A stretch of 64,000 nucleotides of DNA from Nonomuraea rubra (GTDB lineage Bacteria; Actinomycetota; Actinomycetes; Streptosporangiales; Streptosporangiaceae). The stretch is taken from contig NZ_JACHMI010000001.1 in the NCBI RefSeq assembly GCF_014207985.1, positions 7,237,001-7,301,000 on the forward strand, written 5' to 3'. The notes beneath the pieces are model-generated. The model had not been told where the DNA came from, searched no databases, and was given only the letters and a program-made list of their open reading frames with translations. The stretch's first letter is position 1, and each line of letters opens with the position of its first letter. A program made the position numbers and the translations under genes. Shown piece after piece: positions 8,402 through 18,666 of this stretch.

Positions 8402-9865
8402 TCAGACGGCCGTGCGCGACCACTGCTGGTTGGTGCCGGTGTTGCACGGGTACTGCTTGAGGATCGCGCCGTCCGCGGTCGATGCGGACGGTACGTCCAC
8501 GCATTTGCCGCTGTGTCGTGCCCGGAGCTGGAAGTAGCCGCCGTTGGCGACCAGCTGGAACTGCTGGTTGGTGCCGGTGCCGCAGGTGTACTGGATGAGC
8601 TCGGCGCCGTCGGCGGTCGAAGCGCTCACCACGTCGAGGCACCTTCCGCTGTGGCGGCTGATGATGCGCCAGTAGCCGCTGCCGGCGTCCTGGAACTGCC
8701 ACTGCTGCCATGCGTTGCCGTTGTAGGTGTATTGGCCGACGCGGGCTCCGTTGTCGGTGTTCGGTTGCTGGACGTCCATGGCCTTGCCGCTGTGGCGCGC
8801 GTTGATCCTGTAGGTGGGGTCGCCGCCGCCGATGGTGTCGCCCCAGGCGTACCGGATCCGGTCGGCGCCGGAGGGGTTGCGGACGGTCAGGTGGAGATCG
8901 GTGCCGCTGCCGCTCAGGGCGTACATCGAGTACCAGTCGTAGCCGATGTCGCCTGGTTTGCCGCCGAGGGCGGGCCAGTAGGTGCCGCCCATCTGGTTGT
9001 CCCGCATGACCTGGGCCATGGCGCGGATGTGGCGCACGAAGTTGTCGGTGCTGTTGGCGTCGCCGTAGTTGAGGCCGGTGGACATCGGCGCGCCGAACTC
9101 GGTCGCGATCGCGCGGGAGGCGCAGGTGCCCAGCCGCGTCTGGATGTGGTTCCGGAAGGCGTCGTAGGTCATCGCGCTGTAGAAGAAGGCGTAGTGGTGG
9201 AAGGACAGCAGGGTCGCGTTGAAGCGGCTGTCGTTGCAGATGTCGCGCAGGTCCTGGCTGTAGCCGGTGCCGCCGATGAGCACCCGGTTCGCCGGGGCCG
9301 AGTAGTGGTGGGCGAGCCAGGCGGCGGCGACGTCGCGCCATTCGGCCGAGCTGTAGCCGTGCGGCTCGTTCATCGGCTCGAAGTAGACGTTGCCGTTCGA
9401 GCCGTAGGTGCTGGTGACGCTGGACCACATCGTGTTCCACGCGGCGAGGTTCGTGATCCTGCCGCCGGAGGCGGCGCCGTCCTCCCAGTAGGCGAGGATG
9501 ACCTTGAATCCGCGGGCGGTGGCGGCGTCGATGGCGCCGCGGTAGGCGTTCCACCAGGTGGTGTTGGCCACCGTGTGCGTGTTGATGGGCAGCCGGACGG
9601 TGTTGACGCCCATGGTGGAGGCCATGTCGTCGTAGAGGGCGCCGGCCTTGGCGCGTACGGTCGCGTTGCTGTCGGACTGGCTCAGGCCGTGCAGGACGAG
9701 CGTGCCGGTGCTGAAGTTGTCACCCAGTACGGCCCAGTTCATGCCTCGGAACTGGCTGGTGGCGGCATGGGCCGGCGCCGCGGAGACGACGAGGCTTGCC
9801 GCCGCGGTGAGCGCGGTCACCACAAGGGCGGTCAGTAACCGGCGTAACGCCGTGATCGGTGTCAT
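8402..9865 (-). CDS. Secreted GH5-type cellulase/mannanase-like enzyme with ricin-type lectin domain
   Basis: Encodes 487 residues: a signal peptide (about 1-34, AHA/A cleavage), a GH5-like TIM barrel (about 36-325) and a C-terminal ricin-type beta-trefoil (about 345-487). The likely acid/base Glu167 lies in FEPMNEPHG and the nucleophile Glu256 in AIATEFGAP. The trefoil shows three repeats with HSGK/R-CLDV and Q-x-W/F signatures (QQWQF, NQQFQL, NQQWSR), a CBM13-like sugar-binding fold. The ATG at 9865 is preceded by GGGAG. It acts outside the cell on beta-glucans or mannans; the exact substrate cannot be read. Two LacI-type palindromes precede the gene. Confidence 0.85.
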   Translation of the reverse strand: MTPITALRRLLTALVVTALTAAASLVVSAAPAHAATSQFRGMNWAVLGDNFSTGTLVLHGLSQSDSNATVRAKAGALYDDMASTMGVNTVRLPINTHTVANTTWWNAYRGAIDAATARGFKVILAYWEDGAASGGRITNLAAWNTMWSSVTSTYGSNGNVYFEPMNEPHGYSSAEWRDVAAAWLAHHYSAPANRVLIGGTGYSQDLRDICNDSRFNATLLSFHHYAFFYSAMTYDAFRNHIQTRLGTCASRAIATEFGAPMSTGLNYGDANSTDNFVRHIRAMAQVMRDNQMGGTYWPALGGKPGDIGYDWYSMYALSGSGTDLHLTVRNPSGADRIRYAWGDTIGGGDPTYRINARHSGKAMDVQQPNTDNGARVGQYTYNGNAWQQWQFQDAGSGYWRIISRHSGRCLDVVSASTADGAELIQYTCGTGTNQQFQLVANGGYFQLRARHSGKCVDVPSASTADGAILKQYPCNTGTNQQWSRTAV

Positions 9866-9957
9866 GGAACTCCCATCACTAGATGTGAATTCTTCGAGCC
9901 CTCGCGTGCGATGTGCCGCAAGGGGTGTTACCAGCCTCCGGAGGGCCCGCGATGGAC

Positions 9958-9971
9958 GGAAAGCGCTTTCC
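9958..9971. promoter_or_regulatory. LacI-type operator, copy 1
   Basis: GGAAAGCGCTTTCC is a perfect 14-bp palindrome centred on AGCGCT, typical of LacI-family sugar repressors. It lies in the expected 5' untranslated region of the cellulase gene. The identical 14-mer occurs inside the pectate lyase promoter at 40680-40693. Confidence 0.75.
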
Positions 9972-10025
9972 CTCTGCACGAACGGATGGCGATCGGATCA
10001 CTCCGCGTTTCGTGGTGTTTCGCAG

Positions 10026-10094: not shown

Positions 10095-13000
10095 TCACCC
10101 TGACAGGCCCGAGCACGTGTGGCGGAACGGCACGGCCGGCAGCATGCGGGCCCACACCGTGGGGGTGAGCTCGCCCGCCAGGTCGCAGGCCAGGCCGCGC
10201 GGGTCGCGCACGGCGTCGCGCAGGGCGCTGACGTCCCGTACGGTGGCGGCGGGCCGGGCGCCCGCGGTGTTCACGGTGACGAGTGTTCCGGCGTCCGGGC
10301 CGAAGACGGTCTGGCGGAAGTTGTCGTCGTAGGCGCTGACAGCCGTCAGGCGCTGCGGCGCGGTGACGTCGGTGAGGTCCCAGACCATCAGTGTCCTGTC
10401 GTGGCCGCCCGCGGCGAGCATGCGCCCGTCGGGGCTGAAATCGATCGAGAGGATCTGGCTCGTCTGGTCGGCGATCCTCGTGGCGAGCCTGGGACGGGCC
10501 GGGTCGGTGACGTCCCACAGCAGGATGGTGCCGTCGTTCTCCCCGACGGCGACGAGGTCGCGGCCGGGGCTGAAGGCGATGGCCTCCGCCATGCGAGGGG
10601 GACCGATGTCGGACGGCGGTACGGAGGGGTCAGGGGGAAGCGGTGATGTCCGGCGAGGGCGTGTCGGATCGGCGATGTCCCAGAGGGCGCTCACGTCGTA
10701 CAGGCCGCCGACCGCCAGCGTCCTGCCGTCCCGGCCGAAGGCCATCGTGGTGAGCCGGCCCTGGGCGGGGTCGGCCACGATGCTCAGGAAGGCGGGGGCA
10801 CCACGGTCGGCGATCGACCAGAGCTCGAACTCCGACCCCAGCCCCACGTTCACGGCCAGCGTGCGGCCGTCGGGGCTGAACACCAGCCGGCCGGTCCGGC
10901 CGGGGATCGTGCTGATCAGGCGCGGGCGGGCGGGGTCCGCGGCGTCCCACAGCGACACCGGTCCGTGCAGCGGCGCCGTCGCCACCGTGCTGCCGTCGGG
11001 GCTGACGGCGACCGCGGTGTCGGCCTGGCCGGAGGGCAGGTGGCCGGCGGCCCTGGGGCGGGCGGGGTCGGTCAGGTCGTACAGCAGGCTCGGCTCGCCC
11101 GCCACGGCCATCAGGCCGCCGTGCCTGGCGGTGGCGACCATGCCCGTGGGGAGGTGGGCCCGGGCGCGCGGCTCGGCGGGGGCGTTCACGTTCCACAGGG
11201 TCGTCACCCCGGTGTCCTCGCCGGTGGCGATCTGCGTGCCGGCCGGGTTGAACGCCACGGCGCCGAGCCGTCCTGCGGTGCTGAAGGTCGTCCGCCTGAC
11301 CGGGGTGGCCGGGGCGACGTCCCACAGGACGGCCGCGTGGTCCTGCCCCGCGCTGGCCACGGTGGTGCCGTCCGGGGAGTACGCCAAGGAGTAGACGATC
11401 GCGTGGTGCCCGGTCCAGCGCGCGATCACCTTGGGGCGGCGGGGGTCGCGGATGTCCCAGGCGATGAGGTTGCCGCTGTGCTCCGCGGCGACGAGACGAT
11501 CTCCCTTCGGGCTGATGGCCAGCGCGTCGAGGAAGAGGGGCTTGTCGATGGTGGCCAGGCGTACCGGGCGACGGGGCCGGGTGACGTCCCAGAGGATCAC
11601 GCCGTCACGGGCGCTGGCCAGGATGCTGCCGTCGGCGCTGTACGCGAGATGGACCACCACGTCGCGGTGTCCCGGGGAGACCGAGAGCGTGACGGGCCGG
11701 GCCGGGTCCTTGACGTCCATCAGTCTGACCGTCTTGCCGTCTCCCAGCGCGAGGGTCCCGCCGTCCGGGCTGAAGGCGAGGACCAGCGCGGAGGTGGGCA
11801 CGCGGCTCAGCAGGCGGGGGGACGCCGGGTCCCGTACGTCCCAGAGGCACGCCCATGACTGGCGGGTGAGCTGGGCTAGGGTGCGGCCGTTCCGGCTGAA
11901 GGCCACCGACCTGGTCTCCGTGCCGGGGGCACAGCCGTTCACCGTGGACAGCCGCCGGACGGCCCGCGCCCTCGCGAGGTCCCAGAGGATCAGCGAACCG
12001 TCGGAGCCGCTGGTGGCGAGCATCCCGCCGCCCGGCGCGTAGGCCAGCGCGGACACCCGCGAGGGGGTGCCGGGCAGCCCGCCGGCGTAGTGCGTGCTGC
12101 TCAGCGCCGAGACCAGCGCGGACCGGGAGGCGCTGTCGGGCCGCAGGGCCAGCGCCGCCGCGCCCAGGCGCAGCGCCAGCGTCGGGCTGGTCTCGCGTTG
12201 CGCCCTGGCCAGCAGCTGGCTGCCGGCCGCCGCGACCTCCCGCCGCTCGTTCAGCCGGGCGTTCCTGTCGAGCAGGAAGCCGGCGACGACGGCGAGGACG
12301 ACGGCGACGGCGCCGATCGCGGCGGCCAGCCGTCGTCTCCGCGCCGCCCTGTGGCGCACGGCCGCCTTGACGAAGTCGCGCTCGTGCGCCGGGAGCTCCT
12401 CGCCCTTGAGCTGTGACCAGCGCACCGCGTCGCGCAGTCCGGTGCCGCTCAGCAGCGCCAGGCGGCGCTCGCGGCCGGGCGCGGCGGTCCGCCACCGGTG
12501 GAGTGCGGTACGCAGGTCCTCCTGCCAGACGCGGAACTCGCGCGACTCCTCCACCCAGGCACGCAGCCGCGGCCATGCGTCGATGAGGACCTGGTGCGCC
12601 AGTTCGGCCGTGCCGGACCCCGCGAGGCCGTCGCCGCCGGTGGTGACGACCAGGCGCGCCTCGGCCAGGTGCTCGGCCGTGGCCCACTGCCGCTCGTCCA
12701 GGTCCTCACGACCGGCGACGCGGCGGACGTCCTGCGGCTCGCGCTGCCCGGCCGGGTCGTCCGGCCGTACGAGCTGCACCAGCAGGCCGCGGGGGTCGTA
12801 CCCCAGCGACTCGGAGCGGGCGACGACCTCGTCGGCGCGCTTGGTCAGGGCTCCGGCGACCCCGCCGACGTCCTGGTACTCGTCGATGACGAGCCGCCCC
12901 GCCCGCTGCCGCTCGTACAGCGCCGAGAGGGTCTCCTCGGCCAGCGGCAGCGCCGACGAGCTGCCCCGGGTGTCGGTGATGATCTGGGTGACCAGGGCCT

Positions 13001-14258
13001 CGTCGATGACGCATCCGACCGTGCGCAGCGGTTCGCGGATCATCAGTTCCAGCTGCGCGGCGGTCGGCTTGCCCACCACCGTGCCGCGCGCGTCCCACGC
13101 CTCGTAGATCGTACGGGTGTGGGCGCCCGCCAGGTCCCGGAACGTCTCGCGTACGGTCACCACGGCGCTCACGGCGGGCGGCCCGTCGCGAGCGGCGGTC
13201 AGCTCGCGCACGAACGCGTCGATCCCGGCGGCGGCCCGCGGATCGGCGGCGAGCACCTCGTCGAGCTGGTCGAGAGCGAGCGCGAGGCGGGTCACTCCGG
13301 ACGTCCGCAGCAGGTCGGCCAGCGCCGCGGGGCCCAGCGTCCCGGCCTGCTCGGCGCGCAGCTGGCCCGAGGCCGGTTCGCCGCCGATCAGCAGGCCGCG
13401 GACGATCTCGGCCGCGAGGTCGACACGAGGATGGAGGCGGACGGCGGAGGTCGCGAAGCCGAGCGCGGAGAGCCGGGGCAGCACCCCTCCGCGAACGAGC
13501 GACGTCTTGCCCACCCCGGAGGCGCCGTACACGACCGTCAGGGCGTGGCGGCGGGCCAGACCGGCGACCTCCTCGGCGAGATCGTCACGCCCGGCGAACA
13601 CGCGCGCGTCCCCCTGCTCGAAGGGCCGCAGCCCTCGGAAGGGAGAGGGCGGTAGCGCCATCTCCCGCAAGGGCGGGTGGGCGTCGAACAGGCTGCGGAC
13701 CGGGATGGCGTACGCGCGTCCGGGGCCGTGCCTGGCCACGACCATCCCGACGACACCGCTGAGGTCCTCCACCCACACGGGCGCGCCGCTGAAACCGGGC
13801 TCGACCTCCTCGGTGACCAGCTCCAGCCAGCCGTCGCCGACCACCCCTCGCAGCCGCCCGTGCGCCGACGCTCCGTCGGGGAAGTCCGCGGGATAGCCGA
13901 ACGTGCGGCAGTCGCGGCCCTGCAGGTCGTCCAGGGGGTGGAGGACGAGCCTGCCGAGGCCCGGCGGCGTCTCGCCGGCCAGCTCCAGCACCGAGATGTC
14001 GCCGTACAGCCCGTCGGCCGGCTCGACGACGACGGCATGCGCCCGCAGGAGGCCGCCGCCGGCCTGGGGGAAGTCGACCTCGACCTCCCATCCTTCGCAC
14101 GGCAGGGTGGGACGCCTCCTGCGGGTGCCGCGGGTGTGGGCCAGCACGTGCGTGCACGTCAGAAGGGTACGCGGGCCGATCAGGAACGCCGAGCCCACCG
14201 GCTCGGCACCCATGCCCCAGACTCGGGCGACGGCCCCCGTGAAATCAGGCGCCGGCAT
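10095..14258 (-). CDS. Trypsin-like protease / STAND NTPase / WD40 double-propeller protein (predicted conflict system)
   Basis: Encodes 1387 residues. Residues 1-200 form a trypsin-like serine protease domain with a complete triad: His37 in TCTHVL, Asp87 in YGDISVLEL and Ser157 in GFSGAPV. There is no signal peptide. SPFRGLRPFEQGDARVFAGR leads into a STAND-type P-loop NTPase with Walker A GASGVGKT (245-252) and a Walker B-like LALALDQLDE near 332. A single membrane helix lies near 640-660. Residues 726-1370 hold about fourteen WD40-like repeats, each ending in LWDV/LWDI-type strands, enough for two seven-bladed propellers. Such proteins are predicted regulated-death or immunity sensors: propellers sense, STAND oligomerises, protease cuts. 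It overlaps by 14 bases the Trypco1-like gene upstream. Target and trigger are unknown. Confidence 0.85.
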   Translation of the reverse strand: MPAPDFTGAVARVWGMGAEPVGSAFLIGPRTLLTCTHVLAHTRGTRRRRPTLPCEGWEVEVDFPQAGGGLLRAHAVVVEPADGLYGDISVLELAGETPPGLGRLVLHPLDDLQGRDCRTFGYPADFPDGASAHGRLRGVVGDGWLELVTEEVEPGFSGAPVWVEDLSGVVGMVVARHGPGRAYAIPVRSLFDAHPPLREMALPPSPFRGLRPFEQGDARVFAGRDDLAEEVAGLARRHALTVVYGASGVGKTSLVRGGVLPRLSALGFATSAVRLHPRVDLAAEIVRGLLIGGEPASGQLRAEQAGTLGPAALADLLRTSGVTRLALALDQLDEVLAADPRAAAGIDAFVRELTAARDGPPAVSAVVTVRETFRDLAGAHTRTIYEAWDARGTVVGKPTAAQLELMIREPLRTVGCVIDEALVTQIITDTRGSSSALPLAEETLSALYERQRAGRLVIDEYQDVGGVAGALTKRADEVVARSESLGYDPRGLLVQLVRPDDPAGQREPQDVRRVAGREDLDERQWATAEHLAEARLVVTTGGDGLAGSGTAELAHQVLIDAWPRLRAWVEESREFRVWQEDLRTALHRWRTAAPGRERRLALLSGTGLRDAVRWSQLKGEELPAHERDFVKAAVRHRAARRRRLAAAIGAVAVVLAVVAGFLLDRNARLNERREVAAAGSQLLARAQRETSPTLALRLGAAALALRPDSASRSALVSALSSTHYAGGLPGTPSRVSALAYAPGGGMLATSGSDGSLILWDLARARAVRRLSTVNGCAPGTETRSVAFSRNGRTLAQLTRQSWACLWDVRDPASPRLLSRVPTSALVLAFSPDGGTLALGDGKTVRLMDVKDPARPVTLSVSPGHRDVVVHLAYSADGSILASARDGVILWDVTRPRRPVRLATIDKPLFLDALAISPKGDRLVAAEHSGNLIAWDIRDPRRPKVIARWTGHHAIVYSLAYSPDGTTVASAGQDHAAVLWDVAPATPVRRTTFSTAGRLGAVAFNPAGTQIATGEDTGVTTLWNVNAPAEPRARAHLPTGMVATARHGGLMAVAGEPSLLYDLTDPARPRAAGHLPSGQADTAVAVSPDGSTVATAPLHGPVSLWDAADPARPRLISTIPGRTGRLVFSPDGRTLAVNVGLGSEFELWSIADRGAPAFLSIVADPAQGRLTTMAFGRDGRTLAVGGLYDVSALWDIADPTRPRRTSPLPPDPSVPPSDIGPPRMAEAIAFSPGRDLVAVGENDGTILLWDVTDPARPRLATRIADQTSQILSIDFSPDGRMLAAGGHDRTLMVWDLTDVTAPQRLTAVSAYDDNFRQTVFGPDAGTLVTVNTAGARPAATVRDVSALRDAVRDPRGLACDLAGELTPTVWARMLPAVPFRHTCSGLSG

Positions 14259-14577
14259 CGCCGCCCTTCCGCTCGCCCTCCCACTCCATCTCGATGACGA
14301 AGTGGGCCTCGCCGCCCGTACGGGTCAGGATGACGTTGGCGTCGGCCGTCAGCTTCACGCCGAACTCCACCCGGATGCGCTCCGGCTTCCGGGGCAGCGC
14401 GGAGAGTTTGTCGAAGACGTGCCCGGCGATCTCCTGGACCCGTGACAGGCTGCGTTGGAGGCTCTCCCCCGCCGTGTCGAACTGGTCCTCCACCCGCCCG
14501 ACCCGGGTGGTGCGGCGATCGATCTCGACCAGGATCGGTTCTCCACCGTCGACGGGCATCTGCACGATGTCGGGCAT
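14245..14577 (-). CDS. Trypsin-co-occurring domain 1 (Trypco1, CU044_2847-like) protein
   Basis: Encodes 110 residues. The N-terminus DGGEPILVEID, the middle helix and RIRVEFGVKLTADANVIL near the C-terminus match the small family annotated as CU044_2847/Trypco1, known to sit beside trypsin-like proteases in predicted biological-conflict loci. GGAGG precedes the ATG. It is the first gene of a two-gene operon: its end overlaps the start of the trypsin-STAND-WD40 gene by 14 bases, implying translational coupling and a shared complex. It could be a substrate, adaptor or regulator of the protease; sequence does not decide. Confidence 0.75.
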   Translation of the reverse strand: MPDIVQMPVDGGEPILVEIDRRTTRVGRVEDQFDTAGESLQRSLSRVQEIAGHVFDKLSALPRKPERIRVEFGVKLTADANVILTRTGGEAHFVIEMEWEGERKGGDAGA

Positions 14578-14747: not shown

Positions 14748-15194
14748 ATGGGAACCGTGATGTCTGTTCGCCCACTCACGCTGGCCTCCGCCGGGCTGCG
14801 GCGGAGGTGGCTACGCGTCCTGATCGGTGTCCTTGCCGGGCTGGGCGCGATCGGTGCTCTGTTCGCAGGGTTGGTCGCCCTCTCGTTCACCTCCATCAAG
14901 GAGGCCGGCTTCGTGGACGGGCCGGATCCGTACAGGATCCGGCTCCAGCAGTCGCCGGCGGGTCTCGGGCCGGACACGGTGATGTGGCTCAGTGTCCGCA
15001 GGGACGGCGGATTGCTCAGCAGAGAGTGGGATCTCGGCTGCTTCAACGATGACGTGCCCGACGACACCTTCGACTCGGTCAAGTGGACGGGGCCGAGTTC
15101 GGTCGAGATCCGGGTGGCCGACGGGCGGACATTCCCCGTGGCCTTGGACCCTGCGTCGGGTCGGCCCGAGACCACCGCCGCCCTCAATTGTTGA
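14748..15194 (+). CDS. Membrane-anchored protein of unknown function
   Basis: Encodes 148 residues from ATG 14748, or 144 from ATG 14760. After a short basic N-terminus there is one membrane helix (about residues 23-45), then an extracellular beta-rich domain of about 100 residues with a Cys near LGCFNDDVPDD and a final Cys. No family is recognised. It is transcribed away from the Trypco1 operon, 170 bp from it, and could be a bystander or a membrane component of it. No strong ribosome binding site precedes either start. Confidence 0.65.
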   Translation: MGTVMSVRPLTLASAGLRRRWLRVLIGVLAGLGAIGALFAGLVALSFTSIKEAGFVDGPDPYRIRLQQSPAGLGPDTVMWLSVRRDGGLLSREWDLGCFNDDVPDDTFDSVKWTGPSSVEIRVADGRTFPVALDPASGRPETTAALNC

Positions 15195-15230: not shown

Positions 15231-16538
15231 TCAGTTCGTCAGGGTGAGCGGGTTGACCAGGTCGGCGTAGACCAGCAGGCCCGCCATGATCATCATCAGC
15301 ACTGCCGCCGCGTACGTCAGCGGCAGCACCTTGGCGATGTCGACGTGCTGCGGCTTCGGCCGCCGCATGACCTTGGCGTAGGCCCGCTTGACGCCCTCCC
15401 ACAGGCCGCCGGCGATGTGCCCGCCGTCGAGCGGCAGCAGCGGGATGAGGTTGAACAGGCCGATCGCCAGGTTGAAGCCGGCCAGCAGGTTGACGAAGGT
15501 GGCGATCTTCTGCTCGGTGGACAGCTCTTCGGAGGCCAGGATCTCGCCGCCCATGCGGCCCGCGCCGACCATCCCCACCGGGCCCTCGGGGTCGCGTTCC
15601 TCGCCGGAGAAGGCGGCGTGCCAGACGCCGACCATCTTGTCCGGCAGGTTGAGCAGCGAGCCGGCCACCCGGCCCGTCAGCTCGCCCATGTAGCCGATGA
15701 CCTGGCCGATGCTCTGCTGCTCCATGACCTCGGTGGGCCGCACGCCGAGGAAGCCCACGTTCCTGTCGGTCTTCTCGGGGTCGTCGAGGTTGGGCCGGTC
15801 CTGGGCGATGAGCGTGACATCGAACGTCATCGGCTTGCCGTCGCGGACGATGCCGAGCTTGGCCGGGCCGGCGCCGTGGGAGCGGATCAGCCGGGTGGCG
15901 TCCTCCCAGGAGCCGATCGTGGCGCCGTTGAAGGAGACCAGGTGGTCGCCCGGCTTGAGGCCCGCCTGCGCGGCGGGGGTGGGCTGGTCGCCGGGCTTGC
16001 AGGCGGCGCGCTGCTCGGAGGCGGGGATGACGCACGTTTGGGTGGTGGGCGAGACGATCGGGGCCTCGGTGGGCAGGCCGATGCCGACCAGCAGGATGGT
16101 GAAGAAGATGAAGGCGAGCACGAAGTTCATCGCCGGGCCGCCGGACATGATGATGACCTTCTGCCACCACTTCTTGCGGTAGAAGACGCGGTCCTCGTCG
16201 CCTGGGCGTACCTCTTCCTGGGCGGCGTCGCGGGCCGACTCGATCAGGCCCTGCCACGGGCCGGTCGCCGTGCTCCTGACCGTGCCCGGCGCGTCGCCCG
16301 GGCGGGGCGGCAGCATGCCGATCATGCGGATGTAGCCGCCGAACGGGATCCACTTGATGCCGTACTCGGTCTCGCCCTTGCGCCGCGACCACGCCGTGGA
16401 GCCGAAGCCCACCATGTACTGGGTCACCTTGACGCCGAAGAGCTTGGCCGGCACCAGGTGTCCGAGTTCGTGCAGCGCGATGGAGATCAGCAACCCGAGG
16501 AGGAAGAGGATGATCCCCGCGACGTAGAGCCAGTTCAT
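15231..16538 (-). CDS. rseP: Site-2 intramembrane zinc protease (RseP/RIP family, M50)
   Basis: Encodes 435 residues. The zinc motif HELGH (23-27) is in the first membrane helix; a PDZ domain (about 160-250) contains GLKPGDHLVSFNG; the third zinc-ligand region FNLIPLLPLDGGHI lies near 365-378. This is the regulated intramembrane protease that cuts membrane-bound anti-sigma factors or similar substrates. The ATG at 16538 gives the usual short lumenal start before helix 1. In most actinobacteria the main copy lies between dxr and ispG; neither is here, so this may be a second copy, which is an inference. Confidence 0.88.
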   Translation of the reverse strand: MNWLYVAGIILFLLGLLISIALHELGHLVPAKLFGVKVTQYMVGFGSTAWSRRKGETEYGIKWIPFGGYIRMIGMLPPRPGDAPGTVRSTATGPWQGLIESARDAAQEEVRPGDEDRVFYRKKWWQKVIIMSGGPAMNFVLAFIFFTILLVGIGLPTEAPIVSPTTQTCVIPASEQRAACKPGDQPTPAAQAGLKPGDHLVSFNGATIGSWEDATRLIRSHGAGPAKLGIVRDGKPMTFDVTLIAQDRPNLDDPEKTDRNVGFLGVRPTEVMEQQSIGQVIGYMGELTGRVAGSLLNLPDKMVGVWHAAFSGEERDPEGPVGMVGAGRMGGEILASEELSTEQKIATFVNLLAGFNLAIGLFNLIPLLPLDGGHIAGGLWEGVKRAYAKVMRRPKPQHVDIAKVLPLTYAAAVLMMIMAGLLVYADLVNPLTLTN

Positions 16539-16633
16539 CCTGGGCGCTCCCCCGGCAGGCGACAAGGACACATGTGAAGGACGGGACGAAAGGTGCGAAG
16601 ATCCAATGTAGTCGATCTCCAAGGTCGTCTTGG

Positions 16634-17203
16634 TCAGCCTGTGATGGCGGCCAGGAGAGTGCGTACGGCGGTGCGGATCGACTCGTCCGGGGATGGGGGG
16701 ACGCCGGTGGTCAGCGCGGTGAACAGGATGCCCAGCACGCTCATCTCCAGGAGCATGGCGTCGTCCAGGCCGAGCTCGATCCCAGCGGCGCGGCCTTGCC
16801 GCACGATGAGATCGGCGCGGCGGCGCAGAGCGTCGGTCAGCGTGTGCCGCAGGCGGGGGTTGCGGGTGCTTTCCAGGTGCAGTTCGAACAGGGCCAGCGG
16901 GTCGTGCCTTCCGTCGGTCAGCATCGTGGTCAGGACGGCGACCAGCGCTTCCTCCAGGTGGACGGGCGAGATCGGCCGGACGGTATAGGCGTCCACGCGT
17001 TCGCCGAGCCGGTGGGTGATCCGCTCGATGACCCCGTCGAGCAGCGCGTCGCGGGTGCGGAAGTAGCGCGACGTGGTGCCGGGCGGCACGGCGGCGGCGG
17101 TGTCGACGGCCCGGTGAGTCAGCCCGCGGGACCCCTGCTCGGCCAGCACGGCGATGGCCGCGTCTGCGAGGTGGTCGCGGCGCTGCGGGTTAGGCGCTGG
17201 CAC
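16634..17203 (-). CDS. TetR family regulator of the flavin monooxygenase
   Basis: Encodes 189 residues. The helix-turn-helix reads GLTHRAVDTAAAVPPGTTSR then YFRTRDALLDGV. GTG at 17203 is chosen because AAGGAC precedes it and the start overlaps the end of the monooxygenase gene by 14 bases; another GTG at 17239 is further inside that gene. The overlap implies translational coupling with the monooxygenase, which it probably represses through the AT-rich palindromes at 18631-18666. Confidence 0.85.
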   Translation of the reverse strand: MPAPNPQRRDHLADAAIAVLAEQGSRGLTHRAVDTAAAVPPGTTSRYFRTRDALLDGVIERITHRLGERVDAYTVRPISPVHLEEALVAVLTTMLTDGRHDPLALFELHLESTRNPRLRHTLTDALRRRADLIVRQGRAAGIELGLDDAMLLEMSVLGILFTALTTGVPPSPDESIRTAVRTLLAAITG

Positions 17204-18620
17204 GGTGTCCTTCAAGGGTGTGGTGGTCGGCCGGGCCACACCATTTCAGCAGAGCCGCCGGGATGCCGTCGCGATCACCGGCCCAGGCCACGTAGCCGTC
17301 CGGGCGGATCAGTGTCGCCTCCGGCCGGGTGCCGGCAAGCGGCCTGGCCGGTCGTACGCGATCCCGATAGGGGGCCGGCACCTCCTGGTCCGACAGCAGG
17401 ACGAACGTCCCCGCGCGCAGCACCTCGTACAGGCGGCCCGCCTCCGTCGGGCCGTCGGCGGCGCGGCGGCCGGTCAGCGGGTGGACGTCCGGCTCGTCCG
17501 GCGGGTAGGCGAACTCCAGGCCGGACAGTCTTCCGAGGATGCGACGGCGGCCGGCGCCGGTGTGCAGCAGGGTGGCCATGACGCGCCGGTTGATCTCCAG
17601 GCGCAGTCGTGATCCGCTCAGCACCAGCCCGGTGAGGTGATCGGCCATGGCCAGGACCGCGGAGCCGACGGGATGCCGCTCGGCGTGGTAGGTGTCGAGC
17701 AACCAGGGCGGGGCCCAGCCGTGCAGGTCGGCGGCGAGCTTCCAGCCCAGGTTGAAGGCGTCCTGGATGCCGGTGTTCATACCCTGGCCGCCGATGGGCG
17801 AGTTCACGTGGGCGGCGTCGCCGATCAGGAAGACCCGCCCTGATCGGTAGCGGCGGGCCTGCCGGCGCTCGGCGGCGAAGCGGGAGAACCAGCGCGGCTC
17901 GCTCATGTCGTAGTCGGTGCCGGCGATCTGCCGGAAGGCCTCGCGGATCCGGGCGAAACCCGCGTCCTTCTGCTCTGTACGCAGCCACGCGCCGACCCGG
18001 AACCAGCCGTCACCGAACGGGAGGGTCACGACCACGCCCTCCGTGCCGACCTGCGTGATGGGGGGCGGCTCGGAGGTGGGGATGCGGACGTCGGCCAGGA
18101 GCATGGGCAGACTGTACGTCGCCCCGGCGAACCCCACGTCCACCAGGTCCCGGACGGTGCTGTGGGCACCGTCGGCGCCGATGACGTACCGGGTGTCCAG
18201 CTCTGTTCCGTCTTCGAGTCTGAGCCGTACGGACTCCGCGTCCTGGGTCAGGCCGACGACGTTGGCGTTGCGGCGGATCTCCACGCCCAGGTCGGCGACG
18301 CGTTGCCGGAGGATCTTCTCGGTGCCGTTCTGAGGCACGATCAGCAGCATCGGGTATCTCGTGTCGAGCCGGCCGAAGTCCACGCGTGAGGCGTAGGCGG
18401 GGTACACGGTCCTGAGCGGGTTGCCCCGCGCCACCAGTTCGTCACCCATGCCCCTGGCGTCGAGCAGTTCCAGGGCCCGGGCGTGCAGGCCGAAGGCCCG
18501 GGTGACGTTGGACTCGGCGCCGCGCTTGTCCACGATCACGCAGGACACCCCGGCCAGGGCCAGCTCGCAGGCGGCCATCAGGCCGGTGGGGCCGGCTCCC
18601 ACGATGACGACGTCGTTCAT
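17190..18620 (-). CDS. FAD-dependent aromatic hydroxylase (rifampicin-monooxygenase-like)
   Basis: Encodes 476 residues of a group A flavin monooxygenase: GxGxxG at the N-terminus (VVIVGAGPTGLMAACELA), the DG motif VIGADGAHSTVRD and the GD motif FLIGDAAHVNSPIGGQGMN. Length and order match Rox-type rifamycin monooxygenases and polyketide hydroxylases, which use NADPH and O2 to hydroxylate aromatic rings. The ATG at 18620 follows GGAGGA. It forms an operon with the TetR gene downstream. An antibiotic-inactivating or catabolic role is likely; the substrate is not fixed by sequence. Confidence 0.85.
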   Translation of the reverse strand: MNDVVIVGAGPTGLMAACELALAGVSCVIVDKRGAESNVTRAFGLHARALELLDARGMGDELVARGNPLRTVYPAYASRVDFGRLDTRYPMLLIVPQNGTEKILRQRVADLGVEIRRNANVVGLTQDAESVRLRLEDGTELDTRYVIGADGAHSTVRDLVDVGFAGATYSLPMLLADVRIPTSEPPPITQVGTEGVVVTLPFGDGWFRVGAWLRTEQKDAGFARIREAFRQIAGTDYDMSEPRWFSRFAAERRQARRYRSGRVFLIGDAAHVNSPIGGQGMNTGIQDAFNLGWKLAADLHGWAPPWLLDTYHAERHPVGSAVLAMADHLTGLVLSGSRLRLEINRRVMATLLHTGAGRRRILGRLSGLEFAYPPDEPDVHPLTGRRAADGPTEAGRLYEVLRAGTFVLLSDQEVPAPYRDRVRPARPLAGTRPEATLIRPDGYVAWAGDRDGIPAALLKWCGPADHHTLEGHRASA

Positions 18621-18630
18621 GACATCCTCC

Positions 18631-18666
18631 ATTCGCTACATATGTATCGCTACATTTATAGCGAAT
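18631..18666 (-). promoter_or_regulatory. AT-rich TetR operator/promoter of the monooxygenase operon
   Basis: ATTCGCTA (18631-18638) and TAGCGAAT (18659-18666) are perfect outer arms. Inside them lies TACATATGTA (18637-18646), a second palindrome, and a further GCTACAT copy. The region is markedly AT-rich for this genome and contains TATAAA on the coding strand. Repressor binding would cover the promoter. Confidence 0.65.

Follow-up and report, generated by a model that had tools for sequence, protein, structure and literature searches.

When a single protein joins a protease, a STAND nucleoside triphosphatase (NTPase) and WD40 propellers, with a membrane helix between the NTPase and the propellers, on which side of the membrane does its sensor lie, and what does the small protein encoded just upstream contribute? 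This question is raised by a locus on the minus strand of a 64,000-nucleotide stretch of the genome of the soil actinomycete Nonomuraea rubra (contig NZ_JACHMI010000001.1, positions 7,237,001 to 7,301,000; hereafter the window, whose own numbering is used below). The locus consists of two open reading frames, 14245-14577(-), which encodes a Trypco1 protein of 110 residues, and 10095-14258(-), which encodes a trypsin-nSTAND1-helix-WD40 protein of 1387 residues. We found that this two-gene locus is genuine, recurrent and mobile. On balance, and with some reserve, we favour the view that it encodes a single-pass transmembrane STAND receptor-protease together with a small accessory subunit, a cofactor of the trypsin domain. 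Disulfide-held C-terminal WD40 propellers, most likely outside the membrane, would bind a trigger located on the cell surface or in the wall, and the signal would cross the single helix to a cytoplasmic nSTAND1 NTPase. The NTPase would then bind nucleoside triphosphate and assemble, and assembly would gather or activate the N-terminal trypsin domains, leading to cleavage of a cytoplasmic target. Trypco1 may assist the trypsin domain as a cofactor without catalytic activity of its own, whether as an adaptor, an inhibitor or a substrate-presenting subunit.

Architecture of the two-gene locus

Profile searches bore out the identity that an initial annotation of this DNA had given to the small protein, which matched the Trypco1 family PF19493 with 79.4 bits (cut-off 24.6) and the NCBIfam family CU044_2847 with 58.6 bits (cut-off 23). 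Its gene shares 14 nucleotides (14245-14258) with that of the large protein, the same overlap as annotated before, and translation of the two genes may be coupled. In the large protein, residues 1-205 (13644-14258) form a trypsin-like domain. Trypsin_2 (PF13365) was not among the best 25 of 40 families for the whole protein and emerged when this region was scanned alone, with 44.3 bits (cut-off 27.6) and a match starting at residue 22; it was the sole family listed for the region. The catalytic triad is intact, as had been proposed, and lies on the predicted inner side of the membrane. His37 (14148-14150), Asp87 (13998-14000) and Ser157 in the motif GFSGAP (13788-13790) are all invariant across an alignment of 27 proteins (A4). 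A guess at the S1 pocket from the residue six positions before Ser157 was dropped, as that alignment column is highly variable.

The STAND NTPase of the initial annotation could be assigned to nSTAND1 (PF20703, 251.9 bits, cut-off 27.1; residues 206-592, 12483-13643). Its Walker A motif, GASGVGKT, occupies residues 245-252 (13503-13526), of which G245, G250 and K251 are invariant in A4. A membrane helix follows at residues 644-662 (12273-12329), directly preceded by the basic stretch RHRAARRRR. With a value of 2.71, it is the sole segment of the protein to reach 1.6 on the hydrophobicity measure KD19, which agrees with the single helix noted earlier between NTPase and propellers; the absence of an N-terminal signal likewise holds by this measure, which stood in for a dedicated signal-peptide predictor. 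The tail, residues 663-1387 (10098-12272), is predicted to be extracytoplasmic, and Pfam models of WD40 and other beta-propeller families cover it from about residue 730 to 1330. Its length fits the estimate of about 14 WD40 repeats, and a crude scan for the motif [LVIA]W[DNSP] found 11.

Membrane topology of the large protein

The position of the helix had been called unusual. We found instead that it is the rule in the family, as a helix directly follows the STAND domain in 141 of 151 nSTAND1 proteins with or without a trypsin domain (two of 153 proteins were left out of this count). The charges around it are strongly polarized. Lysine and arginine were more numerous in the 15 residues before the helix than after it in all 63 non-redundant trypsin-nSTAND1 proteins, in 71 of 75 other non-redundant nSTAND1 proteins (three had equal numbers and one had fewer), in 6/6 plasmid relatives and in 40/40 held-out relatives. 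The positive-inside rule relates flanking positive charge to the cytoplasmic side of a membrane, so this asymmetry points to an N-terminal part inside and a tail outside. A further segment able to turn the chain back was present in only 2 of the 63 tails. Segments before the helix that passed the same KD19 threshold were weaker than the helix (mean 1.75 for 54 segments, compared with 2.40), and many of the 14 that were listed correspond to the trypsin strand around TCAHVV.

Cysteine numbers gave a second line of evidence. Domains outside the membrane that carry disulfides should have paired cysteines, and their tails should therefore contain even numbers of them. Among the non-redundant trypsin-nSTAND1 proteins, 58 of the 62 tails with any cysteine had an even number, compared with 32 of 63 heads, the parts of the same proteins before the helix (Fisher P = 7e-8). 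The difference was also seen in a stricter set (26/29 tails and 14/30 heads, P = 6e-4) and in the held-out proteins (35/39 and 18/40, P = 3e-5), where it persisted once proteins related to the first set or to one another had been removed (28/30 and 15/31). The six plasmid proteins have two tail cysteines each. At the C-terminus, the pair formed here by Cys1358 (10185-10187) and Cys1382 (10113-10115), predicted partners, is complete in 60 of 63 proteins, with one member present in two and neither in one, a partial protein; Cys1382 is invariant in A4. A second predicted pair, Cys776 (11931-11933) and Cys804 (11847-11849), was either co-present (6) or co-absent (12) in all 18 rows of another alignment (A5), and was present in the six closest relatives.

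Together, charge asymmetry and cysteine parity favour the first of two options in the initial annotation, in which sensor and protease lie on opposite sides of the membrane: the protease and NTPase are predicted to be cytoplasmic and the propellers outside. Several observations weigh against this topology. The P values for parity treat related proteins as independent, and when cysteine numbers were compared between disjoint relatives, 7/12 changes in tails and 9/28 in heads were even, which is not a significant difference (P = 0.12). Five tail cysteines are present in P0001, the closest relative at 97% identity, and several tail cysteine columns have no clean partner. Parity is weaker in nSTAND1 proteins without trypsin (48/72 tails compared with 33/69 heads, P = 0.03; stricter set, 30/39 and 16/37, P = 0.005). 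There are few control proteins that lack a linker helix (3/7), and the control from other STAND proteins (6/12) is imperfect, because 7 of these 12 have a segment past residue 500 that reaches KD19 1.6. Moreover, in two paralogous loci of the same genome the linker helix is missing from an nSTAND1 protein (L098) and from a protein with another STAND domain (L097).

These points bear on an alternative in which the helix is an anchor only, or inserts on activation, while the propellers stay in the cytoplasm and sense an intracellular trigger at the membrane, as Avs proteins do. It draws on the existence of the helix-less paralogues and on Avs5, which gathers at membrane-associated sites, the word 'transmembrane' being absent from the accessible text of that report (PMC12931631). 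We regard this alternative as unlikely, since it would have to accommodate a charge asymmetry without exception in 63 proteins and again in 40, a parity present in the tail and lacking in the head, and the near absence (2/63) of a second segment by which the tail could return.

Our preferred topology, with the propellers outside, may extend beyond trypsin. We see about even chances that nSTAND1 NTPases overall, whatever their effector, are mostly single-pass receptors with disulfide-stabilized sensor propellers outside and an effector inside that is driven by the STAND domain. The usual view places the STAND sensors of bacteria within the cell. Were the helix, with its strictly polar charges and the cysteine pairs beyond it, a feature of the whole family, a large class of these proteins would look outward, so that bacteria would have surface-facing NLR-like receptors; this would imply a search for extracellular triggers, such as phage tails, wall fragments or competitor proteins, besides cytoplasmic ones. 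Avs5, for its part, is described as sensing early phage proteins (PMC12931631). The Trypco1-trypsin cassette would then be the protease version of such receptors, shuffled between inside-sensing machines (helix-less STAND proteins and VMAP) and outside-sensing ones. The two paralogous loci just mentioned each carry a further Trypco1 copy, paired with a trypsin-STAND-WD40 protein without linker helix. One module therefore seems to serve both kinds of sensor, and both versions of it, one sensing inside and one outside, apparently occur within the N. rubra genome.

Trypco1 and the trypsin domain

To follow the pairing across genomes, we surveyed 118 neighbourhoods of Trypco1 genes: the four of the genome itself, 74 of 142 listed places in the order (every second up to the 137th, plus five of the same genus), and 40 in the genus of a further genome, G104, which is probably Streptomyces (every third of the first 118 listed places). 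A trypsin domain directly adjoined Trypco1 in 75 of them, namely 3/4 in the own genome, 35/69 in the order, 4/5 in the additional same-genus sample and 33/40 in the genus of G104. Trypco1 came first in 69 of the 75 pairs, and a His-Asp-Ser triad was readable in 73 of the adjacent trypsins; the frame was cut short in the other two. The expectation that the pairing is conserved was thus upheld, also by the six full-length plasmid relatives described below, each of which has the pair.

Beyond the trypsin domain, the partners fall into different classes. A Pfam scan took in 41 of the 47 adjacent partners without nSTAND1, leaving six aside. VMAP-C was found in 20 of the 29 shorter ones, while among the 12 longer ones AAA_16 was found in eight and WD40 in seven. 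In 24 further partners downstream of Trypco1, nSTAND1 was present. Because these classes share the trypsin domain as their common element, Trypco1 most likely acts on it, and the trypsin domain is the likely binding partner. Evolutionary distances are compatible with this: those of Trypco1 and trypsin were correlated over 68 pairs (r = 0.62; none of 2000 permutations was as high, the highest being 0.19), and for the 24 nSTAND1 pairs the value equalled that between trypsin and STAND domains of the same chain (0.77 for both), although linkage alone would yield the same correlation.

We next consider how strict the association is. Held-out loci were picked by similarity to residues 1-663, and 40 of 59 places were used (12 had already been surveyed and seven were not taken). 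Trypco1 lay upstream of the trypsin-nSTAND1 gene in 17 of the 40 and just after it in six. Weighing against a fixed two-component system, the remaining 17 showed no Trypco1 in a search that reached at least 1.2 kb upstream of the trypsin domain and 1.1 kb past the end of the gene. These absences were scattered over the tree, with 12 changes compared with an average of 13.1 in shuffles. As Trypco1 stands beside only 23 of the 40 genes, it is a common partner in cis but not a required one. All 15 genomes with loci lacking Trypco1 encode it elsewhere, compared with 116/150 genomes in that genus overall, so that action in trans at these loci is possible. Replacement by Trypco2 was rejected, as the 15 genomes contain 18 Trypco2 places and not one of them adjoins a trypsin-nSTAND1 gene. 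The 17 loci without a nearby Trypco1 (within L249-L288) encode trypsin-nSTAND1 proteins with the transmembrane helix, and in the 15 genomes searched no Trypco2 stands beside them.

The irregular association also bears on a different role for Trypco1, as a substrate that activated trypsin cuts and whose fragment becomes the effector. This is what happens in Avs1 and Hachiman, where a trypsin-fused switch cleaves its upstream partner, a gated pro-nuclease, at isoleucines, according to the accessible text (PMC12799240). The layout there is alike, with a separate, typically upstream gene and a trypsin fused to the switch protein, and the co-inheritance of Trypco1 and trypsin would fit as well. However, Trypco1 has only about 110 residues and no enzyme-like match, and its absence near 17 of 40 held-out relatives weakens the case for an essential substrate; we consider this role quite unlikely. 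Structure prediction gave little further guidance. AF2 models were of low confidence (57.8 for the window protein and 66.7 for a relative from L113, in which a helix and a C-terminal hairpin were better), a Foldseek search of the PDB with the latter model returned 49 matches with none under E 0.7, and a profile search of solved structures found helical-bundle look-alikes as best matches. No function was derived from the Trypco1 fold. A cofactor role for Trypco1 remains the reading we prefer.

Two further arrangements were seen in the survey. At one locus (L147), a single Trypco1 sits between two tandem trypsin-nSTAND1 genes. The fourth Trypco1 of the N. rubra genome (L095, 7032-8351 of that locus) has a frame open well upstream of the domain; a trypsin frame without other Pfam match lies on the same strand some 6 kb away.

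Related systems, distribution and neighbouring genes

The building blocks of this family have been described before; new here are the pairing of Trypco1 with nSTAND1 proteins and a sensor predicted to lie outside. Trypco1 was defined in VMAP (vWA-MoxR) systems by Kaur et al. in 2020, in a paper whose accessible text also mentions iSTAND and GAP1-N2 systems with membrane segments (PMC7159879). The VMAP ternary systems described there resemble the present locus in having Trypco1 beside a trypsin domain, whereas here nSTAND1 serves as the switch, with a membrane helix and propellers after it. VMAP-C was not among the families listed for the large protein (best 25 of 40, and best 25 of 48 for residues 663-1387), and no VMAP-C, vWA or MoxR was seen among the families listed for the two genes or for the five flanking genes scanned (8402-9979, 14748-15194, 15231-16622, 16634-17239 and 17190-18632). 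The nSTAND1 proteins of Kaur et al. 2021 likewise have a central nSTAND1, interchangeable N-terminal effectors including trypsin and a variable C-terminus; for the C-terminus, the text available speaks of FGS domains, and neither a Trypco1 pairing nor an extracytoplasmic propeller was found in it (PMC8195603).

AVAST type 1 (Avs1) and Hachiman share with our locus the separate, typically upstream partner and the trypsin-switch fusion, AVAST being a STAND system as well. Their partner, however, is a pro-nuclease of the MBL fold, and no transmembrane propeller was found in the accessible text (PMC12799240). Here the upstream gene matches only Trypco1 in Pfam, with no upstream MBL-fold nuclease. 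In the CARD-NLR system LypABC, LypA combines a trypsin-like peptidase with an ATPase domain in one chain, as here, but has a CARD-like N-terminus, and its partners are LypB (NLR-like) and LypC (a peptidase-endonuclease) instead of Trypco1, as far as the accessible text goes (PMC13236601). A trypsin match beginning at residue 22 leaves no room for an N-terminal CARD-like domain in our protein. A metacaspase of T. erythraeum with a CHASE2 receptor offers a likeness in topology, since its receptor is predicted outside and its protease inside in one protein; it differs in its caspase fold, its CHASE2 sensor and its lack of a STAND switch, again judging from the part of the paper available (PMC3501461). 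In the literature text covered, with figures, supplements and most subscription papers outside its scope, we found no statement of a Trypco1-nSTAND1 pairing or of extracellular nSTAND1 tails.

The distribution of the cassette is sporadic. At E ≤ 1e-150, the large protein was found in its own genome only among 54 genomes of the genus, and Trypco1 itself was present in 14/246 genomes across the phylum, 111/200 in the order and 116/150 in the genus of G104. The cassette is also mobile and seen on plasmids. The large protein matched 64 plasmid records, six of them over at least 80% of its length. In each of the six, a Trypco1 gene directly precedes that of the large protein; five of the records are annotated, and all five label the Trypco1 gene as CU044_2847. 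One of these plasmids was typed as conjugative and one as mobilizable. On two Streptomyces plasmids (L214 and L215), one of them typed conjugative, the cassette lies directly beside parAB, where it might contribute to maintaining the plasmid or to exclusion. Such a portable two-gene unit could provide a test bed for the role of Trypco1, which the accessible literature leaves without definition.

The receptor probably senses danger. An immunity role is plausible by analogy with the family context (PMC7159879, PMC8195603), and defence or regulated death as the output is our guess. Two points count against these proposals: no PADLOC model matched the large protein well (best E 0.019) or matched Trypco1 at all, and our literature search found no experiment on the trypsin-nSTAND1-Trypco1 family. 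The cassette might instead serve ordinary signalling in hyphae, related to the envelope or to development, with no conflict with phages or rivals, which would suit a sensor predicted outside, the prevalence of Trypco1 in the order and the want of a good PADLOC match. We hold this to be possible but doubtful, given that the large protein occurs in one of 54 genomes of the genus, that copies travel on plasmids including a conjugative and a mobilizable one, and that the protease module is common to predicted conflict systems, as shown by its VMAP-C partners and described in the accessible part of PMC7159879. A receptor for danger remains the function we prefer.

The small divergent membrane protein encoded at 14748-15194 had been suggested as a third part of the system. 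It adjoins the cassette and has a hydrophobic stretch near its N-terminus. However, we found it in 17 of 54 same-genus genomes, its own included; 12 fetched contexts of this gene had differing neighbours, none with Trypco1 or trypsin and one (L204) with an nSTAND1 frame, and none of the other 117 Trypco1 neighbourhoods contained a match. The suggestion was rejected as far as a conserved part of the unit is concerned, and a third component, at most a lineage-specific one, is highly improbable. The protein had no match in Pfam or NCBIfam. The window's other flanking genes were not found in the 12 contexts, except for two gene fragments from further out (L207) and a weak one (L210), and none of the contexts offered a clean empty site. 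Two flanking genes have second copies in the N. rubra genome, that of the cellulase (8402-9979, GH5-type with a ricin-type lectin) being 97% identical and that of the M50 protease gene (15231-16622) 90% identical, which suggests that the locus lies in an accessory region.

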